Shown here piece by piece: positions 25,293-45,303 of a DNA stretch of 64,000 bases. This stretch comes from Albidovulum marisflavi (GTDB lineage Bacteria > Pseudomonadota > Alphaproteobacteria > Rhodobacterales > Rhodobacteraceae). The DNA lies in the NCBI RefSeq assembly GCF_025751435.1, contig NZ_JAOWKY010000001.1, positions 1,286,001 to 1,350,000 of the forward strand. Reading direction: 5' to 3'. The notes beneath the pieces are model-generated. The model worked only from the letters and a program-made list of their open reading frames with translations, had not been told where the DNA came from and did not search any database. Made by a program: the position numbers and the translations under genes. The first letter of the stretch is position 1, and every line of letters starts with the position of its first letter.

Positions 25293-25357
25293 GTCGTTCG
25301 TCCCGTCATTCGCTCGGGTTTCCCTTAGCGAAAGGGCGGGCGAAGGAAAAGGGGCGG

Positions 25358-26434
25358 CTACTCCGCAGGGGTGCCGCAGGCCGCCATCGCAAGCCCCAGG
25401 GCCGCCAATAGGTCATAGGCGCCCGCGCGCATCCTCGAGCCCTTACGTGCGCCCGCAGCCGCGATGGCAGCCTGGATTGCGTAGTAAAGCGCGAAGGCGC
25501 GCGACGCATAGGCGATGATCGATCCGCGACGGCCGCGGAAAACTGCGCTGCCAGGGCGGCGGCGACCAGAAGGCCGGGCAGGACCGGGGCCACAATCTGC
25601 ATCATGTCGATGATCGCGGTTTCGGACAGCCGTGCTTGGTCCGGGGTGAAGAGGTAGGCGATGAGCCCGATATAGGCGAGGTAGATTGCCGTGGAAAGAA
25701 GCTGCGCGATGCGCATCGCCCGGCGCCTGGTCGGCGCGTCGTATTCGGCGCCAAGGTAGCGCGCGGTCTCGAATCCCTGGACGGTCACGATCAGCCCGAA
25801 GGCAAGCTGCACCGCCGGCCAGCCCGTCAGCGTCGGCGGGTCGAAGACCAGCCCGCCACCGTTCAACTTTTCGGAGAAGTAGACGGCAAGTCCTGCGAGC
25901 ATCGACGATATGATGGCCAGCTTGATGCCGACGGACACCTGCTCCATCCGCTCAAGCGCCTGGAATCCATGCGCCCACCCGGTGATCAGAATGACCCCGA
26001 AGATCGCCGTCGTGACGATCCTGCCGGCAAGGTCGCCGGCGAAGGGTGTCAGGTCGACCGCGAAGGCTCCGAACAGGTTCAGGTAGTAGGCGACCGAGAT
26101 CACATAGGCGATGGCCAGCGCCCAGGAGGCAACGGTTTCCAGCCGTTGTTCCGTCGCGCTACGCCCGCTTTCGCCGTCCAACCGCCGGGTGATGTTGAAG
26201 CGGATCGCATCGCCGAAGGCGTAGGCCGCAAGGCAGAGCAGCGCCATGACGGCGGGCGCGTAAACCCCGTAGCTGTGTTCCAGAACAGGTCCCAGCACCA
26301 GAAAAACCCGAGCCGATGATCGAGGCTAGCGGAGTGACGGTGGCGCGCCAAAGCCGCGCCCGGGAAAGGCGCGGCCAAAGAAGCAGCCCGGCAGTCGCCA
26401 GCCCGCAGCAAAGAATGAGCGCATCGATGAGCAT
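25358..26434 (-). pseudogene. frameshifted APC-superfamily-like permease
   Basis: The reading frames join into one polytopic membrane protein only if two breaks are bridged. The N-terminus MLIDALILCCGLATAGLLLW (start 26434, with GAAGG upstream) runs in one frame to IIGSGF; after the A5 run at 26302-26306 (T5 on the coding strand) the match continues in another frame (LGPVLEHSYGVYAPAVMALL... AALAAQFSAAVAD). Near 25515-25530 the frame shifts again to IIAYASRAFALYYAIQAAIAAAG and stops at 25358-25360. About ten membrane helices are recognisable. From memory of homologues, some 40 residues between AVAD and YASRAF appear deleted. It follows the HD-domain gene by 100 bases on the same strand. A sequencing error could explain the homopolymer break, less easily the second. 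Confidence 0.7.
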
Positions 26435-26534
26435 TCATACAGCCTTCTGTCTGGAACTCCAAACCGAAGGCCGCCCCGATGGCAAGGCGCGTGTTGCCGC
26501 TTTCAGCCGATCGGGGCTGCCGTCCCCGCCGGTG

Positions 26535-27152
26535 TCAGCGGCCTGCGGCGACGGCAGCGTCGGTCAGGGGCGCGCGTTCGCCGCGACGGATCACCGCCGG
26601 GTCATAGGGCTTGCGGTCGAAGACCTCGCGCACCATCGGGGCGAAGAACTCGATCGGCAGGTCTGGGTAGTCGGGATCGAAGCTGGCCTGGTCCCAGCGT
26701 TCGCAGAATTCGGCGCAGTCATCGAAATACGGATGCCCCCTGTGGCGTTCGCGCTTGTGCTGGTCGAAGCCGTCCAGGTGGTGGCCGTAGTAAAGCATCT
26801 GGAAGTCGCCATGGGTCTGGACGCACCAGGTGCATTGTTCGCGCACGAAGGGCTTGAGAATCGTGGCGGCGTATTCATCATGGTTGTAGGGCGCGTAGAT
26901 GTCACCGATGTCGTGAAGCAGGGCAGAGACGACCCAGTCGATGTCCGCCCCGTCGCGCCAGGCGCGGGTTGCGGATTGCACGGAATGGCCAAGTCGCGTG
27001 ATCTTGTAGCCCGACAGGCTCTTGTCCAGATCGACCAGCGCCGTCAGCAGCCGGTCTGCGGTGTGCTTGGTGTGGTCGATTTCATGCGCCGTCAGGAATT
27101 CGTACTCTTCCTTCGTGCCGTCCTTCATCTGGGTGAAGCTTACCGTCTTCAT
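26535..27152 (-). CDS. HD-domain protein with diiron-oxygenase-like ligand set (COG4341 type)
   Basis: A 205-residue soluble HD-domain protein. Six candidate metal ligands are present in the order seen in mixed-valent diiron HD oxygenases such as PhnZ and inositol oxygenase: His56 (RLGHSVQSA), His80-Asp81 (ALLHDIGD), His91 (YNHDEYAA), His114 (VQTHGDF) and Asp154 (ERWDQASFD). The spacing His56 to His80 equals that in PhnZ (His34 to His58). The PhnZ substrate residues Tyr24/Glu27 are not obviously kept, so the substrate may differ. The true start MKTVSFTQMKDGTKEEY at 27152 overlaps the stop of the PhyH gene (ATGA at 27149-27152). Relatives are annotated as phosphohydrolases; oxygenase function is inferred from ligands and partner. 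Confidence 0.85.
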   Translation of the reverse strand: MKTVSFTQMKDGTKEEYEFLTAHEIDHTKHTADRLLTALVDLDKSLSGYKITRLGHSVQSATRAWRDGADIDWVVSALLHDIGDIYAPYNHDEYAATILKPFVREQCTWCVQTHGDFQMLYYGHHLDGFDQHKRERHRGHPYFDDCAEFCERWDQASFDPDYPDLPIEFFAPMVREVFDRKPYDPAVIRRGERAPLTDAAVAAGR

Positions 27153-28033
27153 TGTGCGGCTCCCGCGTATAGTCCCTTGTCGTTCTTGGTGCCCTTCATC
27201 AGGAATGCCCCCTGAGCGGAGCGGATTTCCTCGTAAAGCGCAAGGCTCTGTGGTGTGAAGTTCTGGGTCGGTGGCGAATAGAGGATGAAGTTGCGCATCC
27301 TGTCGGCCCCGCGCGCCAGCATCGCGTAATCCTTGTCGCCGACCTCTTGCGCGACCTCGGGCCGGATGTAGCGGACCACTGCGCCGATCCGGCGATCGTC
27401 CGAGGTGTTGGGGCCCGAACCGTGGATCGTCAGGCCGTGATGCAGGCTCAACTCTCCCGGCATCAGTTCGATCGGCACGCGGTCTTCGGGGGCGACGTCG
27501 ACCTTGATCTCCTGCCCACGGCTCAGAAGGTTGTCCTCGGCAAAGGTGTCGTCGTGCGGCAGGATGGGGTTGCGGTGCGAACCGGCGACGAATTCCATGC
27601 AGCCCGATGCAAGAGTCGCGGGCGAAAGCGCCAGCCACATCGTCACCATGCCGTCAATCGCGCCCAGGCCCCAGTAGGTCAGATCCTGGTGCATGGAAAC
27701 CTTGTGCCTGGTATGCGGCTCCTTGATGAAGAACTCGACTCCGTAGATCAGCAGGTCGGGGCCCAGCACGTCCTCGACCACATCCAGAATTGCCGGGTGG
27801 GTCCCGATCCGGTGGGCAAGCGGCAAGACGCAGTTGGCGTTCACGCGCTTGTAGGTGTTCAGGGGCAGCGGTAGCCCGGCGTCCAGCCAGTCGCGCTCGA
27901 TCGCTTCAAGTTCAGCGCGCCATTCGGCGGCCTGCGCGGGGCTTATGGCCTTGATCGGATGCAGATAACCATCTTCCCAGTAACGGTCGACCGCCGCCTT
28001 GCTCAAGCGGCCGTCGGGCAGTGGAATGTTCAT
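27149..28033 (-). CDS. phytanoyl-CoA dioxygenase (PhyH)-family Fe(II)/2-oxoglutarate oxygenase
   Basis: A 294-residue oxygenase. The facial triad is His115/Asp117 (SMHQDLTYWG) and His204 (TIHGSGPN), with an Arg about 11 residues later (SDDRRIGAV) for binding 2-oxoglutarate. It shares the family and size range of PhnY*, the first enzyme of oxidative 2-aminoethylphosphonate breakdown, but also of ectoine hydroxylases and many uncharacterised enzymes. The ATG at 28033 has GGAGA eight bases upstream; an earlier GTG at 28051 is less likely. It is coupled to the HD gene and divergent from a LysR regulator. Likely reaction: hydroxylation of a small substrate for the HD enzyme. Confidence 0.88.
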   Translation of the reverse strand: MNIPLPDGRLSKAAVDRYWEDGYLHPIKAISPAQAAEWRAELEAIERDWLDAGLPLPLNTYKRVNANCVLPLAHRIGTHPAILDVVEDVLGPDLLIYGVEFFIKEPHTRHKVSMHQDLTYWGLGAIDGMVTMWLALSPATLASGCMEFVAGSHRNPILPHDDTFAEDNLLSRGQEIKVDVAPEDRVPIELMPGELSLHHGLTIHGSGPNTSDDRRIGAVVRYIRPEVAQEVGDKDYAMLARGADRMRNFILYSPPTQNFTPQSLALYEEIRSAQGAFLMKGTKNDKGLYAGAAQ

Positions 28034-28138: not shown

Positions 28139-29044
28139 ATGGAACGAACCCGCATCCCCTCGCTCAACTGGCTGCGCGTTTTCGAGGCGGCGGCGCGGAC
28201 GGAAAGCTTTGCCCGCGCCGCGGTCGAACTGAGCATGTCGGCACCGGCCGTCAGTCAGCAGGTCAAGGCGTTGGAGGCGCATCTGGGGGCAGAGCTGTTC
28301 ACCCGTCACGCCCATGCCGTGCGCCTGACAGAGGCGGGCCGCGCCTATCTGCCCTCAGTCCAGATGTCACTCGTCTCGCTCGAAACCTCGACAGCCGGCC
28401 TCTTCGGCCGGGGAAGGGAAGAGCGGCTTTACGTGCAGGCGGTGCACATCTTCGCCCAAGGGGTCCTGGCCCCGCTGTACAGCGATTTCACCACACGGCA
28501 TCCCGGCATCAAGCTGGTGCTGACCACCGGCAACGCGGTCGGCGATTTCACCCATGCCTTCAGCGATCTGAAGATCATCTTCGGCGCGCCTTCGGCCTTT
28601 GGCCCTGCTCACGACCGGCTGATCGGTGAAACGCTGTACCCCGTCGCGCGCCCCGAGATCGCGGCATCCATCCGGACGCCCGCCGACCTGCTTTCCCATC
28701 CACTGCTTGAGGTGGCGACCCATCGCGCGGGCTGGCCGCATGTCTTCGAATCGCTTCGCATCCTTGGCGCAGGCGCGCGGTTCCTGATGGTTGACTCCAC
28801 CGTCATGGCGGCTGCGCTGGCGGGGCAGGGCGCGGGCGTCGCGCTGGCGCGCGCGCCGGCGAGCGATCCGATCATGGCCGCGCAGGGTCTTGTGCCGTGT
28901 CTTCCCGGCGTCGGCGTGATGGGGCTGGAATACTACCACCTGGTCTATCCCGATCCTGGCACGCTGCGCCGCCCTGCGCGGGCCTTCCGCGCCTGGCTGA
29001 TGGAGCGCATGCGCACCTTCGATGGACCCGGCGCGCAAGTCTAG
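28139..29044 (+). CDS. LysR-family regulator of the PhyH/HD operon
   Basis: A 301-residue LysR regulator of the GcvA-like branch. The winged helix is near residues 6-65 (LNWLRVFEAAARTESFARAAVELSMSAPAVSQQVKALEAHLGAELF), followed by the linker helix and a two-lobed effector domain. The frame is open far upstream, but MERTRIPSLNWLRVFE at 28139 is the LysR start. It is divergent from the PhyH-HD-permease run and has a 25-bp inverted repeat at its 5' end, so it probably controls both itself and the operon. The inducer is unknown; it would likely be the pathway substrate. Confidence 0.92.
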   Translation: MERTRIPSLNWLRVFEAAARTESFARAAVELSMSAPAVSQQVKALEAHLGAELFTRHAHAVRLTEAGRAYLPSVQMSLVSLETSTAGLFGRGREERLYVQAVHIFAQGVLAPLYSDFTTRHPGIKLVLTTGNAVGDFTHAFSDLKIIFGAPSAFGPAHDRLIGETLYPVARPEIAASIRTPADLLSHPLLEVATHRAGWPHVFESLRILGAGARFLMVDSTVMAAALAGQGAGVALARAPASDPIMAAQGLVPCLPGVGVMGLEYYHLVYPDPGTLRRPARAFRAWLMERMRTFDGPGAQV

Positions 29045-29069: not shown

Positions 29070-29501
29070 TCATGACCCGCGGTCGATCTTGGTCGACAAG
29101 TGGATCAGGCTTTCCGAGCTTTTGACGCCTGTCAGCGCGCCGATCTGATCCAGAACGTTGTCGAGTATCGTCGTCGACGCCGCCGCGACGTGAAGCAGCA
29201 GGTCGACCCGGCCCGAGGTCGTGAAGGCGCGCTCGACCTCGGGGATGGTCTTCAATCGCGACAGGACAGCTGCCTGCGCGCGCGGTTCGATGTTCAGAAG
29301 GATCGTCGCGCGGATGTGGCCCTGTCGGGCCGCCTCGCCAAGTTTGACGGTGTATCCGGCGATGATGCCGGTGCCCTCCAGTCGTTCAAGCCGCGCCTGA
29401 ACCGTGGACCGCGCGACCTTCAGTTTGCGCGCAAGAGTCGCGACTGATGTGCGGGCATCCGTGCCCAGTTGGGCCAAAATTGCCTTGTCGAGATCGTCCA
29501 T
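29070..29501 (-). CDS. Lrp/AsnC-family transcriptional regulator
   Basis: A 143-residue feast/famine regulator: an N-terminal helix-turn-helix (about 3-58, MDDLDKAILAQLGTDARTSVATLARKLKVARSTVQARLERLEGTGIIAGYTV) and a C-terminal RAM ligand-binding domain (about 65-140). It is divergent from the ornithine decarboxylase gene with 221 bases between the starts, so control of that gene in response to an amino acid such as ornithine or lysine is plausible but not shown. Confidence 0.93.
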   Translation of the reverse strand: MDDLDKAILAQLGTDARTSVATLARKLKVARSTVQARLERLEGTGIIAGYTVKLGEAARQGHIRATILLNIEPRAQAAVLSRLKTIPEVERAFTTSGRVDLLLHVAAASTTILDNVLDQIGALTGVKSSESLIHLSTKIDRGS

Positions 29502-29592
29502 TTCGGGGTGCCGGCGTTGTGACCTGTCGTTTCGTCGTTTTAGCAGGTATTTTCGGCAAATCCACTCTTTCGATCGGTCGGAATGTGCCCCA

Positions 29593-29689
29593 TATGCCCG
29601 GCACGTTCAGGGAAAAGGGCGGCTCATACGCACCTTGCCTGGTTTGGTCAAATGCGTAAGCGCTTTCCAACCGGTCGTGCCGGGGCATA
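29593..29689 (+). promoter_or_regulatory. candidate structured leader RNA of ornithine decarboxylase
   Basis: TATGCCCGGCACG (29593-29605) pairs with CGTGCCGGGGCATA (29676-29689), 13 pairs with a single bulged base. Inside, TACGCA (29627-29632) pairs with TGCGTA (29653-29658), and weaker matches (GGAAA/TTTCC, TTGCC/GGTCAA) extend it into one long imperfect hairpin. It ends 33 bases before the start codon. A speF-associated leader motif has been described upstream of ornithine decarboxylase genes in alphaproteobacteria; I cannot align this sequence to it. It might instead be DNA-level binding sites for the divergent Lrp protein. Confidence 0.5.
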
Positions 29690-29722
29690 GGGTGGCTGCG
29701 CCTTGTTGGCAGGAGCACGCCG

Positions 29723-30868
29723 ATGGGGCTTTCCAAGACGATCTGGACGAATCCGTCCGAATTTCTGCGCACGCAACGGCCTGATCAGCCGGTGATGTTC
29801 TTTTCGCCCACGGTCCTGCAGGCGACGGCGCGGCGGTTCATCGACGGCTTTCCCGGTCTCGTGACCTATGCGGTAAAATCAAACCCCGAGGAAATGGTGA
29901 TCCAGAATCTCGTCGCTGCGGGCGTCAAGGGTTTTGACGTGGCCTCCCCGGCCGAGATCGAGATGGTCGCGCGGCTCGCTCCGGGTGCGGCCATGCACTA
30001 CAACAATCCCGTACGCGCCCGGCACGAGATCACCTACGCCGTGGGCATGGGCGTATGCTCTTACTCGGTCGACAGCCATTCGGAGCTCAAGAAACTGATC
30101 GAACTCGTGCCCGCCAGGGGCGTCGAGATCAGCGTGCGCTTCAAGCTGCCGGTTTCAGGCGCGACCTACAATTTTGGCGCCAAGTTCGGCGCGACTTTCG
30201 AAAAGGCGGTCCTGCTGCTGCAAGAGGTCGCAGAGGCGGGCTACATCCCCTCGCTGACCTTCCATCCCGGCACCCAATGCAGCGACCCGATGGCGTGGGA
30301 CGCGTACATTCGCGCCGCGGCAGACATCTGCGGCCGGTCTGGCGTCATGGTGCGGCGGCTTAACGTCGGCGGCGGATTCCCGTCCCATCGTCTGCAGGGC
30401 GAACTGCCCCAGCTTGACGCGATTTTCGCCCTGATCGGCCGCGTAGCGGCGGAGGCTTTCGATGGTGCCCCGCCGGCGCTCGTCTGCGAGCCGGGGCGCG
30501 GGCTGGTCGCCGAATGCTTTTCGCTTGCCGCGCGGATCAAGGGCATCCGCGATAACGAGCACGTGTTCCTGAATGACGGTGCCTATGGCGCGATGGACGA
30601 ACTGCCGCTGATGGGAACGATCGACCGGGTCCGCGTGTTGTCCGAACGCGGAGAGATCCGCAGCGGTGCGCTAGAGGATCACATCGTTTTTGGTCCGACC
30701 TGCGATTCGGTCGACCGGCTGCCCGGGGAACTGCCGCTGCCCGCCGATATGGACGAGGGAGACTATCTGGTTTTCGCCGGAATGGGCGCCTATTCGACCG
30801 CGACCAACACGCGCTTCAACGGGTTCGGTGATCTGTCGATCGCCACGGTGATGTCGCTGGGCGTTTGA
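29723..30868 (+). CDS. ornithine decarboxylase-like fold-type III PLP enzyme
   Basis: A 381-residue alanine-racemase-fold decarboxylase of the eukaryotic-type ODC/lysine decarboxylase group. The PLP lysine is Lys52 in TYAVKSNP; HPGTQC near 181 and the phosphate-binding LNVGGGFPS near 213 follow; VCEPGRGLV near 254 is the conserved Glu-Pro-Gly-Arg; and the catalytic Cys327 lies in FGPTCDSVD. It makes putrescine from ornithine (possibly cadaverine from lysine), the entry to polyamines. Located divergently from an Lrp-type regulator and behind a long hairpin. Ornithine specificity is inferred from family. Confidence 0.93.
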   Translation: MGLSKTIWTNPSEFLRTQRPDQPVMFFSPTVLQATARRFIDGFPGLVTYAVKSNPEEMVIQNLVAAGVKGFDVASPAEIEMVARLAPGAAMHYNNPVRARHEITYAVGMGVCSYSVDSHSELKKLIELVPARGVEISVRFKLPVSGATYNFGAKFGATFEKAVLLLQEVAEAGYIPSLTFHPGTQCSDPMAWDAYIRAAADICGRSGVMVRRLNVGGGFPSHRLQGELPQLDAIFALIGRVAAEAFDGAPPALVCEPGRGLVAECFSLAARIKGIRDNEHVFLNDGAYGAMDELPLMGTIDRVRVLSERGEIRSGALEDHIVFGPTCDSVDRLPGELPLPADMDEGDYLVFAGMGAYSTATNTRFNGFGDLSIATVMSLGV

Positions 30869-31055: not shown

Positions 31056-32135
31056 ATGCGCGATGTCGCGCGAAGGCTCTGGGGATTGCTTGGTCTCGGT
31101 CGTCGTGCCGCGGTCGAGGTGCAGGTTCCGCCACGCGGACGGGAGCCCACCGATCACGTCATCCTGATTGATGGAACGATGTCCTCGCTTGATCCGGGGC
31201 AGGAAACCAACATCGGCCGCATCTACCTTGCGCTTCGCGCGGTGCCGCAGTCGGCGCGCATGTCGATGTACTACGAACCTGGCGTGCAGTGGCGAAGCTG
31301 GCGCGACGCGCGCGATGTCGCGATGGGCCGGGGGATCAATCGCCAGATCCAGCGCGCCTACGGCTGGCTCGCCACGCGCTACCGTCCGGGGGACCGCGTT
31401 TTCCTGTTCGGCTTTTCGCGGGGCGCCTTCGCCGTGCGATCCCTTGCAGGGATTATCGACCAGGTCGGGCTTCTGCGGACCGATTGCGCGATCGAGCGCA
31501 ACGTCCAGCTTGCCTATCGCTATTACCGCCAGGCCGAAGCGTCGGAGTCCCGTGACATCTTCGTCCGGCGCTTCTGCCATGCCAAGGTCGGGATCGAGAT
31601 GCTGGGCGTCTTCGACACGGTCAAAGCGCTTGGCCTGAGATTGCCGTTCCTCTGGAGCTGGACCGAACCGCAGCATGATTTCCACAATCATGCACTGGGT
31701 CCTCATATCCGCAACGGCTACCACGCGCTTGCGCTGGATGAGACGCGCGCCGCCTATGACCCGCTATTGTGGGACACGACTGCGGCTGAAAAGTCCGCTC
31801 AGGTCGAGCAGGTCTGGTTTCGCGGAACCCACGGCGACATCGGGGGGCAGATCGGCGGCTTTGCTGCGGCCCGACCGCTTGCCAACATCCCGCTGGTCTG
31901 GATGCTGGAAAAGGCCGAGGCACATGGGCTGCCGCTGCCGGTCGATTGGCGGGGAGACTTCCCCACCGACCCCAAGGCGCCCTCGGTCGGGACTTGGAAT
32001 GGCTGGGGCAAGGCGTTCCTGTTGCGCTCGAAGCGGAGGTTTGGCCAGGATCCGTCCGAGGCGCTGCACCGCAGCGCGCGCGATGGGTCGCGCGGCGCGC
32101 GGCGGGCGATGGCACACCACATGCGCCAGGCGTGA
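31056..32135 (+). CDS. DUF2235 alpha/beta-hydrolase-like protein
   Basis: A 359-residue protein with the DUF2235 hydrolase core also found in type VI secretion phospholipase effectors and in fungal relatives. HVILIDGTMSS near residue 34 is the first strand with the conserved Asp-Gly-Thr; the nucleophile elbow FGFSRGAFAVRSLAG has Ser121; LGVFDTVKALG supplies the conserved Asp; and WFRGTHGDIGG gives the likely catalytic His. There is no signal peptide and no secretion genes nearby, so it is probably an intracellular esterase/lipase or lipid-related enzyme. An AAGGAG ribosome site precedes the start. It is a single-gene unit. Confidence 0.85.
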   Translation: MRDVARRLWGLLGLGRRAAVEVQVPPRGREPTDHVILIDGTMSSLDPGQETNIGRIYLALRAVPQSARMSMYYEPGVQWRSWRDARDVAMGRGINRQIQRAYGWLATRYRPGDRVFLFGFSRGAFAVRSLAGIIDQVGLLRTDCAIERNVQLAYRYYRQAEASESRDIFVRRFCHAKVGIEMLGVFDTVKALGLRLPFLWSWTEPQHDFHNHALGPHIRNGYHALALDETRAAYDPLLWDTTAAEKSAQVEQVWFRGTHGDIGGQIGGFAAARPLANIPLVWMLEKAEAHGLPLPVDWRGDFPTDPKAPSVGTWNGWGKAFLLRSKRRFGQDPSEALHRSARDGSRGARRAMAHHMRQA

Positions 32136-41294: not shown

Positions 41295-44200
41295 TCAGGC
41301 CGCCCCTGCTTCGGCCAGAAGCGCCGCGTTTCCACCCGAGGCGGTCGTGTCGACGCAGACGTGGCGTTCCAATGCCACATGTCCAAGGTCCGGCATCGCG
41401 GTGATCAGCGGCAGGATCGGCCCCCGGCGCTCTGCAAGAGCCAATGCGTAATCGCGGGCCTGTTCTTCCTCGCCCCACCACAGCGCGCCGGCGAAGCCCT
41501 CAAGCGTCGTGAGCATTTCCGGCGCAAGCTGCCCTTCGACCGCCACCGCGGTCCCGCCAAGCGCGCGGATTGCCTCGGCCTGGGTCTGGGCGGCGGCGCC
41601 CGGTCCAAGGCAAAGGAACGGGGCACGGGCGCAAAGCGTCAGCTGATTCGATTCCCCCGTCGGGCCGGGCAGGTCGATCCTGGTGATCTCTCCGCCCGCG
41701 CCGGCCTTGGCAAGTGCCGCGCGCACGGCGTTCGGGTCGGCCTTTGCGTTCGATCCCGCCGACAGAGCGGCAGGTTCGGGTTGGGTGAAGCGCGCCAGGT
41801 ATTCCGGGCCGCCCGCCTTGGGGCCGGTGCCGGAAAGTCCCTCGCCACCGAAGGGCTGGCTGCCGACGACGGCACCGATCTGGTTGCGGTTGACATAGAT
41901 GTTGCCGACGCGCAGCGCCTCGCACACTTCCTGCACGCGGTTGTCGATGCGGGTGTGAAGACCGAAGGTCAGCCCGTAGCCGGTCGCGTTGATGTCATCG
42001 ATGACCTTGGGCAGGTCCTCAGCCTTGTAGGTCGCGAGATGCAGCACCGGGCCGAAGATTTCGCGGCCAAGATCGGCGATGCCCTTCACCCGGATTACCG
42101 ACGGCGCGATGAAATGCCCGTTGCGCGGGATCGAAAGCTGACGCAGCAGCCTTCCTTCCTTTCGCGCCTTTTCGATGTGTGCGCGGATGCCTTCTTCGGC
42201 CTCGGCGTCGATCACGGGGCCAACGTCGGTCGAAAGCGACCAGGGATCACCCAGCTTCAGTTCCTCCATCGCGCCGAAAAGCATGTCGGTGAAATGGGGC
42301 GCGATGTCTTCCTGCACGTAGAGGCAGCGCAGCGCCGAGCACCGCTGGCCCGCGGACTGGAAGGACGAGGCGATCACGTCGCGCACCGCCTGTTCGGGCA
42401 GCGCGGTCGAGTCGACGATCATCGCGTTCAACCCGCCGGTTTCGGCGATCAGCGGCGCACCCGGCGCTAGGTGCTTGGCCATGGCGCGGCGGATGATCAG
42501 CGCGGTTTCGGTCGATCCGGTGAAGCACACCCCGTTGACGCGCGGGTCGGATGTCAGCCGTGCGCCGACGGTTGCGCCGTCGCCGGGCAGAAGCTGCAGG
42601 GCCGAGGCCGGCACACCCGCCTTCAGCATGAGCCCCGCCGCGAAGGTGGCGATCAGTGGCGTCTGCTCGGCGGGTTTCGCCAGGACCGCATTGCCCGTGG
42701 CCAGCGCCGCGGCGATCTGGCCGGTGAAGATGGCAAGCGGGAAGTTCCAGGGGCTGATGCAGACGAATAGCCCGGCCGGGGCTGCGCTGATCGCTTGCGC
42801 GCGCGCCGCGTAGTAGCGCAGGAAGTCGACCGCTTCGCGCACTTCCGCGACTGCGTCCGCCAGCGTCTTGCCGGCCTCGCGCGCCAGGAGCGCGAAGATT
42901 GGGCCGAAGTTTTCCTCGTACAGGTCGGCGGCACGGTTCAGGATGACTGCGCGTTCCTTGGAAGAGGCCGCCCAGGGACGTGCAGCGGACAGTGCGGTGT
43001 CGACATCCTCGGGCGATGCGTCGGTGATGCGGCCCACGCGGGCGCCGGTGGCGGGGTTGGCAACAAGGCGGGGCGCCAAGCCCTTCACCTTGCCCGCGAT
43101 CAGCGGCTGGCCGGTGAATTCCGTCTTGGCGTGTTCGTCGCGCGCCGTGTCGATCATAGACAGCGTCGGCGCGTCGGTCAGGTCGAACCCTTCCGAATTC
43201 CGCCGTTCGGGCGCGAAGAGTTCCGGACCCTTGCGGATGACGCGGTTGGCAATGTCGGGCAGCATCGCCTCGACCGCATCGAACGGGTCCGACGCGACGG
43301 TTTCCGGCGCGACTTCAAGGTCGACGATCTGGTGCACGAACGAGGAGTTGGCTCCGTTTTCCAGCAGGCGGCGCACCAGATAGGCCAAAAGATCGCGGTG
43401 CGCGCCGACGGGGGCGTAGATGCGGCAGCGCGTGCCCTCATCCCGGTGGACGATGTCATGCAGACGCTCGCCCATGCCGTGAAGGCGCTGGAACTCGAAC
43501 GCGGTCTTGTCCGCCGCCATGTCCAGGATCGCGGCGACGGTATGGGCGTTGTGGGTCGCGAACTGCGGATAAATGCGATCCGTCAGGCCCAGGAGCTTGC
43601 GCGCGTTCGCGATGTAGGAAACGTCGGTCGCCTCCTTGCGGGTGAAGACCGGGAAGTCGGTCAGGCCCATGACCTGCGCGCGCTTCACCTCTGCGTCCCA
43701 GTACGCGCCCTTGACGAGCCGGATCATGATCTTGCGGTCAAACTTGTCTGCCAGCGCATGCAGCCATTCGATCACGAGGCCTGCGCGGCGGCCGTAACCC
43801 TGCACGACCACGCCGAACCCGTCCCAACCTTCAAGTTCCGGGTCCGACAGCACGGCCTCGATCACCTTCAGCGAAAGCGTCAGACGGTCGGCTTCCTCGG
43901 CGTCGATGTTGAAGCCCATCTGCGCCTTGGCGGCCTGCCGGGCCAGATCACGCACGACGGGCACCAGCTCGGCCATCACGCGTGCTTCCTGCGCCACTTC
44001 GTAGCGCGGATGCAGGGCGGAAAGCTTGACCGAAATGCCCGGATTGGCGCGGATGTCGTCAGAACGGCAGGCCGAGGCGATCGCGGTGATCGCGCGCGCA
44101 TAGGCCACGGCATAGCGGCGGGCGTCGTCGGCAGTCTTTGCGGCCTCGCCCAGCATGTCATAGGAATAGGTGTAGCCCTGCGCTTCCATTCCCGCGGCGC

Positions 44201-44735
44201 GGTCCATCGCGGATGAGATGGTTTCGCCCAGCACGAACTGCTTGCCCATTTCCTTCATCGCGCGGGACACGGCCTTGCGGATGACCGGTTCGCCCAGGCG
44301 GCGGACGGCGTTGCGCAGGTGGCCGGCAACGCCCGGCTCCTTTTCTTCCAGGACCTTGCCGGTCAGCATCAGCGCCCAGGTGGACGCGTTGACCAGCGGA
44401 GAGGCAGAGTGGCCCAAGTGCTTGCCCCAGTCCGAGGGCGCGATCTTGTCCTCGATCAGCGCATCCATGGTTTCGGCGTCGGGCACGCGCAGCAGCGCCT
44501 CGGCCAGACACATCAGCGCGATGCCCTCTTCGGTCGAAAGCCCGTATTCGGCCAGGAACACTTCCATCAGCCCCGGCCGCACGTCCGCGCGGATGCGCCG
44601 GACCAGATCCGCGCCCTTGGCGACGATGCGCGCGCGGTCCTGCGCCGAAAGGGCGGCCTCGGCGATCAGCCGTTCCAGAAGCGGACCTTCCGCAGCAAGA
44701 GAGCCGGTTTCGATCCTGTGCCAGAGCGCGTCCAT
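41295..44735 (-). CDS. putA: bifunctional proline dehydrogenase / glutamate-semialdehyde dehydrogenase
   Basis: An 1146-residue enzyme oxidising proline to glutamate. The FAD-containing proline dehydrogenase barrel spans about 130-460 (GFGVVVQGYGRRAGLVIEWLH, MIRLVKGAYWDAEVKRAQ); the aldehyde dehydrogenase domain spans about 520-990, with QSAGQRCSALRCLYVQ holding the catalytic Cys and NIYVNRNQIGAVVGSQPFGGEGLSGTG near its end; and about 130 C-terminal residues form the accessory domain of longer PutA types. There is no N-terminal ribbon-helix-helix, so it cannot repress its own gene; the divergent Lrp-type PutR does that job. AGGAGGA precedes the start at 44735, and the upstream frame extension is rejected. 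Confidence 0.97.
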   Translation of the reverse strand: MDALWHRIETGSLAAEGPLLERLIAEAALSAQDRARIVAKGADLVRRIRADVRPGLMEVFLAEYGLSTEEGIALMCLAEALLRVPDAETMDALIEDKIAPSDWGKHLGHSASPLVNASTWALMLTGKVLEEKEPGVAGHLRNAVRRLGEPVIRKAVSRAMKEMGKQFVLGETISSAMDRAAGMEAQGYTYSYDMLGEAAKTADDARRYAVAYARAITAIASACRSDDIRANPGISVKLSALHPRYEVAQEARVMAELVPVVRDLARQAAKAQMGFNIDAEEADRLTLSLKVIEAVLSDPELEGWDGFGVVVQGYGRRAGLVIEWLHALADKFDRKIMIRLVKGAYWDAEVKRAQVMGLTDFPVFTRKEATDVSYIANARKLLGLTDRIYPQFATHNAHTVAAILDMAADKTAFEFQRLHGMGERLHDIVHRDEGTRCRIYAPVGAHRDLLAYLVRRLLENGANSSFVHQIVDLEVAPETVASDPFDAVEAMLPDIANRVIRKGPELFAPERRNSEGFDLTDAPTLSMIDTARDEHAKTEFTGQPLIAGKVKGLAPRLVANPATGARVGRITDASPEDVDTALSAARPWAASSKERAVILNRAADLYEENFGPIFALLAREAGKTLADAVAEVREAVDFLRYYAARAQAISAAPAGLFVCISPWNFPLAIFTGQIAAALATGNAVLAKPAEQTPLIATFAAGLMLKAGVPASALQLLPGDGATVGARLTSDPRVNGVCFTGSTETALIIRRAMAKHLAPGAPLIAETGGLNAMIVDSTALPEQAVRDVIASSFQSAGQRCSALRCLYVQEDIAPHFTDMLFGAMEELKLGDPWSLSTDVGPVIDAEAEEGIRAHIEKARKEGRLLRQLSIPRNGHFIAPSVIRVKGIADLGREIFGPVLHLATYKAEDLPKVIDDINATGYGLTFGLHTRIDNRVQEVCEALRVGNIYVNRNQIGAVVGSQPFGGEGLSGTGPKAGGPEYLARFTQPEPAALSAGSNAKADPNAVRAALAKAGAGGEITRIDLPGPTGESNQLTLCARAPFLCLGPGAAAQTQAEAIRALGGTAVAVEGQLAPEMLTTLEGFAGALWWGEEEQARDYALALAERRGPILPLITAMPDLGHVALERHVCVDTTASGGNAALLAEAGAA

Positions 44736-44780
44736 GAAATCCTCCTGACGTTTGAACCATGATATCGCTTGCAGACGGGG

Positions 44781-44798
44781 CATTCTTCCCAAAGAATG
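44781..44798. promoter_or_regulatory. candidate PutR operator
   Basis: CATTCTT (44781-44787) and AAGAATG (44792-44798) are exact inverted copies in the 97-base region between the divergent putA and putR starts. Position and A/T content fit an Lrp-type site. Confidence 0.5.
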
Positions 44799-44832
44799 GT
44801 AGAAGGTAGGCAAGTAGACTATTTTCGGGTGT

Positions 44833-45303
44833 ATGGACATGCCAAACGATCTTCCGGATATGGATCGCTACGACGCCGCGATTCTGCGAGAGCTTGCGGC
44901 GGACGGGCGAATGCCTGTGACGGAGCTTGCCCGGCGCATCGGATTGTCGAAAACGCCGACTCAGGCACGGGTCAAGCGGCTGGAGGAAACCGGCGTCATC
45001 GCGGGCTACCGCGCGGTGCTGAGCCCGGTTCGCCTGGGTCTTGCGAACGTCGCCTTCGTCGAGGTCCGGCTGTCCGACACCAGGGAAAGCGCGCTTCAGG
45101 CCTTCAATCGGGCCGTGCAGGGGGTCGCCGAGATCGAGGAATGTCACATGATGGCGTCAAGCTTCGATTACCTGCTGAAGGTGCGCACCGGCGACATCGC
45201 GGATTACCGGCGCGTCCTGGGCGAAAGGATATCGTCGCTTCCCCACGTGGCATCGACTTCGACCTACGTGGTGATGGAGGCAGTTAAGGAACGCGGTTTG
45301 TAA
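44833..45303 (+). CDS. putR: Lrp/AsnC-family activator of proline catabolism
   Basis: A 156-residue Lrp-like regulator: helix-turn-helix near residues 10-65 ([52 protein letters not shown]) and a RAM domain near 75-150 including [28 protein letters not shown]. It is divergent from putA, as in Rhodobacter and Agrobacterium, where PutR activates putA in response to proline. Assignment rests on family and position. Confidence 0.93.

Follow-up and report, generated by a model that had tools for sequence, protein, structure and literature searches.

A PhyH-family oxygenase and an HD-domain protein as a candidate pair for two-step oxidation, possibly of a betaine-type compound, in Albidovulum marisflavi

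Which reaction is carried out by an oxygenase of the PhyH family whose gene runs directly into that of a small HD-domain protein? This question is raised by one locus in the window, i.e. in the whole stretch of 64,000 nucleotides from Albidovulum marisflavi that was analysed (Table 1). The PhyH and HD genes share an ATGA overlap and, as judged by eye, a purine-rich site lies directly 5' of both starts. A first-pass annotation of this DNA had described the same layout with a 205-residue HD protein, and it can be read directly from the sequence. In a sample of 295 genomes (294 genera) of the window's family, 39 of 100 homologous loci have PhyH immediately upstream of HD, and the pairing is therefore not a matter of chance. 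Specifically, this arrangement is present in 24 of 51 loci at 65% identity or more, in 15 of 42 at 50–65% and in 0 of 7 below. The divergent LysR-type gene is likely to encode the regulator of the pair; its cluster is again found divergent beside PhyH-HD in relatives. Viral kinship was looked for with PHROGs and no match at E 0.01 was found.

Table 1. Features of the window at the PhyH-HD pair and around it
Feature	Positions	Strand	Remarks
PhyH-family Fe(II)/2-oxoglutarate oxygenase, 294 aa	27149..28033	-	ATG at 28033, stop 27149-27151
HD-domain protein, 205 aa, putative mixed-valent diiron oxygenase	26535..27152	-	ATG at 27152, stop 26535-26537
LysR-type regulator, divergent from PhyH-HD	28139..29044	+	best model GcvA PRK11139, 194.9 bits, below the model cut-off of 288
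Membrane-protein-like frames downstream of HD	25306-26462	-	by eye apparently spread over several frames, from a broken gene or an error in the sequence; 330 aa ORF without Pfam match at 1e-6
AsnC-type regulator (by eye) and PLP-dependent ornithine/arginine-type decarboxylase (PF02784)	29070-30868		beside LysR; clusters of these genes recur near HD in several relatives
Tle1-like phospholipase catalytic domain protein	31056-32132	+	PF09994, 218.5 bits
PutA-type proline dehydrogenase/aldehyde dehydrogenase	41295-44840	-	

Kinship of the two proteins

The PhyH protein has the features of a PhyH Fe/2OG oxygenase: 106.6 bits on Pfam PF05721 (cut-off 22), the HxD...H triad and an Arg for 2-oxoglutarate. 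The triad His115, Asp117 and His204, already noticed in the first-pass annotation, is invariant together with Arg215 in 16 aligned sequences, the window's included. Both by sequence and by predicted model (of moderate quality, pLDDT 78.5) the closest solved relative is ThoJ, whose entry is titled 'non-heme monooxygenase' and is uninformative on betaines.

All six metal ligands that had been ascribed to the HD protein (His56, His80, Asp81, His91, His114 and Asp154) are present and fall on the six ligands of TmpB in a profile alignment. The set is complete in 263 of 264 HD homologues longer than 170 aa, the window's included, the exception being L130 with Leu at position 91. When the AlphaFold2 model of HD (built from 46 aligned sequences, mean pLDDT 94.2) was compared with the PDB by Foldseek, PhnZ was the top structural match, and among the best 50 of 119 matches all 10 at E ≤ 1e-3 were PhnZ or TmpB chains. 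MIOX came next (2huo, E 0.09, probability 0.99), with a glycyl-tRNA synthetase chain of equal E and a probability of 0.57. Exopolyphosphatases appeared at E ≥ 0.64 and dGTPase and Rel entries at E ≥ 3.2, again among the best 50 of 119. A profile of 35 relatives gave the same two proteins against PDB sequences (PhnZ 2.1e-11, TmpB 1.3e-10). In hhalign, with 35 HD members less than 60% identical as the query and small reference sets, the probability was 99.2% against nine TmpB, 92.9% against two MIOX and 1.2%, i.e. no match, against seven HD_3 (YfbR-like) hydrolases. The hydrolase profiles covered HD_3 only; YqeK, HD-GYP and SpoT were covered by the NCBIfam and Pfam scans and by the PDB fold search.

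HD does not exceed any curated cut-off in the NCBIfam and Pfam scans. Below E 1e-4 it matches three NCBIfam models, each for an HD oxygenase (Phn-HD, TmpB and hydroxymethylphosphonate dioxygenase), and on the phosphonate-cleaving models it reaches 29, 26.8 and 24.1 bits as compared to 214.6 for TIGR03276, 300 for NF049941 and 300 for NF052439. The leading Pfam families, MIOX and HD, are likewise under their cut-offs; MIOX is the best match (E 4.7e-4), its 20.3 bits lying below the gathering score of 25, and Asp84 replaces the lysine of HDxxK. A relative from Phaeobacter that is 84% identical to HD is annotated as 'inositol oxygenase family protein'. Kinship of HD with the diiron oxygenases PhnZ, TmpB and MIOX, and not with hydrolases, is thus well supported by fold and profile, and we infer that HD is itself active as a diiron oxygenase. 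The first-pass annotation had proposed an oxygenase-type protein and had named a placement, by tree, among nucleotide phosphohydrolases of shown hydrolase activity as evidence against itself. Fold and profile group HD as proposed, and the profile has no match to the seven HD_3 sequences.

Partners of the HD protein

HD homologues are present in 99 of the 295 genomes of the family sample and in 109 of 385 genomes across the class. For the analysis of neighbours 267 distinct HD genes were assembled by deduplication from 100 family loci, 80 named, 11 plasmid and 79 class-level loci. Left out were four partial matches (G224:C27 and G281:C29, two pieces each), 100 of 104 family-sample places being taken, as well as the P. 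syringae plasmid locus L139, where the match is in two pieces, and four HD genes identical to another. Counted by the first label that applies, the neighbour is PhyH in 60 cases, BKACE or carnitine 3-dehydrogenase in 28, an FA-hydroxylase in 9, a TmpA-like dioxygenase in 6, a class II aldolase in 6, a Rieske oxygenase in 4, TauD in 3, and an IPNS-like oxygenase and a Rieske ferredoxin in 1 each; 149 genes have no scored partner. The labels IPNS-like, Rieske ferredoxin, AsnC and amidohydrolase were given by eye and not from the scan; one IPNS-like protein, from L295, was scanned and matched no NCBIfam model.

Of the 267 HD genes, 83 have a neighbour from one of six hydroxylase families as compared to 13 of 1782 background genes, taken from elsewhere in the same loci and kept un-dereplicated, a contrast that is inflated to some degree since the markers were picked after viewing the HD neighbours. 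After dereplication of HD the adjacency is found in 31 of 137 (at 80% identity), 14 of 72 (70%) and 7 of 36 (60%), and PhyH is the neighbour in 16 of the 137. Rarity of PhyH neighbours had been put forward as grounds for giving up the coupling of the two genes; they are not rare, nor are they the rule.

Linkage is also seen at the level of genomes. PhyH homologues (E ≤ 1e-50) occur in 54 of 295 genomes and 52 of these 54 carry HD, against a base of 99 in 295; 39 of 57 PhyH places in the family sample adjoin HD. Among 15 genomes in which PhyH is never beside HD, 13 carry HD as compared to 60 of the 256 genomes in which no such pair is adjacent. In one of these 13 (G281) the sole HD gene is broken, and one of the two HD-free genomes (G139) has a partial PhyH match. 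PhyH has no match at E 1e-50 in 47 of the 99 HD genomes of the family sample, which argues that HD works without PhyH. It is important to note that the co-occurrence and locus counts ignore the kinship of the genomes and are not independent. Altogether, PhyH appears to depend on HD, whereas HD does not depend on PhyH. The proposed coupling of the two genes thus holds by adjacency and co-occurrence, with PhyH as one partner among several. An obligate PhyH partnership was ruled out, as 27 of 51 near relatives in the family sample (at least 65% identity) have no PhyH directly upstream. The ValRS gene is a neighbour in 17 cases; a function in common with it was also considered, and we read this adjacency as conserved position only.

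A quick tree of 88 rows (81 of them HD) has 12 of 85 inner branches starred and most inner branches are weak. The HD rows were chosen with preference for a scored partner, so that shares in the tree are not frequencies. The window's HD belongs to a set of 18 rows (support 98) with PhyH in 9, carnitine genes in 3, FA-hydroxylase in 2, and Rieske, Rieske-ferredoxin, TauD and TmpA-like contexts in 1 each. Its nearest row is a carnitine-operon HD of its own genus.

Candidate substrates

In the mechanism we propose, PhyH would use Fe(II) and 2-oxoglutarate to hydroxylate a C-H bond of a small substrate, and HD would then, with O2, break the bond adjacent to the newly formed carbinol carbon and set free a carboxylate. 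The substrate would be a quaternary-ammonium (betaine-type) compound and not a phosphonate. HD would be the constant part of the system, joined in other bacteria by other hydroxylases or by carnitine genes. We infer the order of the steps and the bond cleaved, as well as the substrate class, the latter from gene context and residues. That the two-step oxygenase logic holds for PhyH-HD is quite probable in our judgement. Oxidation in two steps of a quaternary-ammonium compound, with HD cleaving the hydroxylated product, is the reading we favour, at about even odds, and any single substrate that one might name is unlikely to be the right one.

A betaine-type nutrient is likelier than a phosphonate because relatives of HD sit beside carnitine and choline genes. 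In 28 of 267 cases, including Mesorhizobium, Hoeflea and Tabrizicola, HD adjoins BKACE and/or carnitine 3-dehydrogenase, as in an L-carnitine/gamma-butyrobetaine catabolic operon, and these HD proteins are 67–78% identical to that of the window. The order BKACE-HD-carnitine 3-dehydrogenase usually precedes genes for an acyl-CoA dehydrogenase, a CoA ligase and a crotonobetainyl-CoA-hydratase-like protein, often with a GbdR-like regulator nearby (from scans of one member per cluster, in which neither the hydratase nor the GbdR match reached its cut-off). A genome from the same genus as the window (G010, L056) has the arrangement too. In a plasmid of P. aeruginosa (L034) a TmpA/butyrobetaine-dioxygenase-like gene stands directly before HD, and genes for a choline-binding protein, a choline dehydrogenase and an aldehyde dehydrogenase follow. 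Among the four Rieske partners, the three that were scanned have the glycine betaine monooxygenase GbcA as their best model, far under the cut-off. A carnitine or choline marker lies within five genes of 52 of the 267 HD genes, which is a raw count with no background rate beside it. Identity clusters with any marker-bearing member number 22 of 137, 16 of 72 and 13 of 36 at 80, 70 and 60%, and those whose representative itself has the marker 20, 13 and 6, respectively.

Several observations weigh against the betaine reading. More than half of the HD genes, the 149 mentioned above, have no scored partner, and the carnitine context comes mostly from one close group (28 raw, 3 at 80% and 1 at 70% identity). 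The neighbourhood of the window's pair yielded no quaternary-ammonium gene, and the BKACE-carnitine 3-dehydrogenase locus of the window's own genome, unlike the HD-bearing carnitine operons, has no HD between the two genes.

It is also conceivable, though fairly unlikely, that a hydroxylase and then HD, by C-C or C-N cleavage, oxidise a small molecule outside both the phosphonates and the quaternary-ammonium compounds, e.g. a hydroxy acid, a polyol or a lipid headgroup. The kinship of HD with MIOX would agree with this, as would the 12 of 267 HD genes that are followed by an FA-hydroxylase (three in the order PhyH-HD-FA-hydroxylase), the class II aldolase neighbours in six distinct loci (L035, L101, L276, L280, L290 and L291) and a LysR-PhyH unit without adjacent HD on a Ruegeria plasmid, a few genes from proline racemase-family genes. 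However, it would not explain why close relatives, in which positions 84 and 118 carry the same residues, lie in carnitine operons or next to TmpA-like genes.

These residues also bear on a phosphonate substrate. Tyr24 and Glu27 of PhnZ fall on Leu46 and Tyr49 of the window's HD; the YxxE pair is absent, as had been stated in the first-pass annotation, and in an alignment of the 267 HD genes with nine TmpB and two MIOX it is present in only 2 of 264 HD homologues (L281 and L286). Position 84 is Asp in 260 of 267 HD proteins, His in 9/9 TmpB, aligned to His62 of PhnZ, and Lys in both MIOX. Two of the seven exceptions, L295 and L300, have His, and TmpB falls beside both in the tree, inside the wider HD family on a very long branch (4.57) whose placement is unsure. 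Position 118 is Gln in 267/267 HD and Lys in 9/9 TmpB, where it stands four residues past the fourth His ligand. A role is also ascribed to Lys108 of PhnZ. The substrate contacts described for PhnZ in PMC7916636 are His62, which orients the substrate hydroxyl, and Glu27, which orients the amino group, and they are replaced in HD by Asp84 and Tyr49. The changes at 84 and 118 would thus speak against a phosphonate substrate, and on them the phosphonate was lowered as first choice.

A PhnY*/PhnZ-like breakdown of a phosphonate other than AEP, TMAEP or methylphosphonate, where PhyH hydroxylates the carbon beside phosphorus and HD frees phosphate, is accordingly judged improbable. PhnZ and TmpB are the closest folds and profiles, PhnY*/PhnZ-type pairs are a known precedent (PMC10574752), and the plasmid relative L034 has its TmpA-like gene directly before HD. 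On the other hand, besides the residues and the scarcity of YxxE, PhyH fits the model of methylphosphonate hydroxylase poorly (E 0.074), the two scanned TmpA-like partners have TmpA as best model but remain at 347.5 and 334.8 bits below its cut-off of 400, and the host has its own TmpAB. The first-pass annotation had left the substrate as another phosphonate or a non-phosphonate; the first part is now less likely on account of Asp84/Gln118, the separate TmpAB and the carnitine/choline contexts of relatives, and the second, as a betaine-type compound, is favoured by residues and contexts. It is very unlikely that HD is a metal-dependent phosphohydrolase or other non-oxygenase lying by chance beside an oxygenase: some relatives are recorded as 'phosphohydrolase' or 'HD domain-containing protein', many homologues have no scored partner, exopolyphosphatase chains appear in the fold search and the six ligands are also found in dinuclear HD hydrolases, but the phosphohydrolase reading is lowered by the fold and profile results, HDxxK hydrolases have Lys where HD has Asp84, and PhyH co-occurs with HD even when not adjacent.

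Returning to the betaine-type reading, Asp84 and Gln118 are kept in 60/60 PhyH-, 28/28 carnitine-, 9/9 FA-hydroxylase-, 6/6 TmpA- and 3/3 TauD-partnered proteins, and also in 144 of 149 without scored partner. A signature of seven positions (L46, Y49, R53, D84, W109, Q118 and Y121), picked from the alignment and not from a structure, is common to 57/60, 28/28, 9/9, 5/6 and 3/3 of the same groups, respectively. It is present in 1/6 aldolase-, 0/4 Rieske- and 0/1 IPNS-like-partnered proteins, and in 190 of 267 overall, whatever the partner. This fits a single substrate type with exchangeable suppliers. The shared residues may mark only close relationship, since the signature is also found in many HD proteins without partner (86 of 149).

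Known systems and further loci

Established HD oxygenases include MIOX (PMC8177086) and PhnZ and TmpB with PhnZ variants (PMC10574752). By our judgement PhyH-HD works like PhnY*/PhnZ and TmpA/TmpB and falls outside both. As in TmpA/TmpB, a hydroxylase is directly followed by an HD diiron oxygenase, with fold and six ligands in common. TmpA/TmpB is described as having a trimethylammonium substrate and glycine betaine as product (PMC10574752). In contrast, TmpA is butyrobetaine-dioxygenase-like and its counterpart here is PhyH. Nor is HD a PhnZ or a TmpB: it stays at or below 29 bits on the curated models, far under their cut-offs, and has no YxxE loop and Asp84/Gln118 in place of His/Lys. Outside the window, the same genome has at G000:C2:293105-294759 (L001, L227) a TmpA of 597.4 bits, over the cut-off, directly beside a TmpB-type HD with a YLGE loop and 199.3 bits on TIGR03276, under the cut-off.

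The combination of an Fe/2OG hydroxylase with an HD oxygenase is shared with PhnY*/PhnZ and with the methylphosphonate pair of Gimesia, from which the window's pair differs in the replaced PhnZ contacts and in the weak match of PhyH to the methylphosphonate hydroxylase model, respectively. MIOX resembles HD in the Pfam, fold and profile matches, whereas the HDxxK lysine, which is K in both MIOX rows, is missing from HD. In the account given in PMC8177086, MIOX acts without a hydroxylase partner.

As for the L-carnitine/gamma-butyrobetaine catabolic operon, to our knowledge none of its steps is assigned to an HD protein, and the open-licence PMC literature searched yielded no such assignment.

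A more far-reaching version of the betaine-type reading, which we regard as doubtful, would see in these HD proteins another branch of the HD diiron oxygenases, one specialised on quaternary-ammonium compounds. Hydroxylase partners and carnitine operon would then converge on a hydroxylated betaine, e.g. L-carnitine. HD would cleave this compound with O2 and lead in one step towards glycine betaine, so that carnitine dehydrogenase and BKACE are bypassed. The PhyH of the window would supply HD as a betaine hydroxylase not recognised so far. A search of the open-licence PMC literature found no paper on this HD family, which is no proof of absence. If active, the family with its changed substrate residues would extend HD oxygenase chemistry past phosphonates and inositol, would be a candidate enzyme for betaine and carnitine turnover, and would warn against scoring such HD genes as phosphonate degraders.

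Some loci of relatives have a composition of their own. A class II aldolase, the neighbour in the six loci named above, is also reported from the carnitine/butyrobetaine region of Arctic SAR11 (PMC12421898). In L281, PhyH, a GbcA-like Rieske oxygenase and two tandem HD genes lie in one directon. In L143, L182, L184 and L199, from Rhizobium and Mesorhizobium, HD follows about 400 bases behind a gene that looks amidohydrolase-like by eye, and in L199 a Rieske-ferredoxin-like gene is called between the two.
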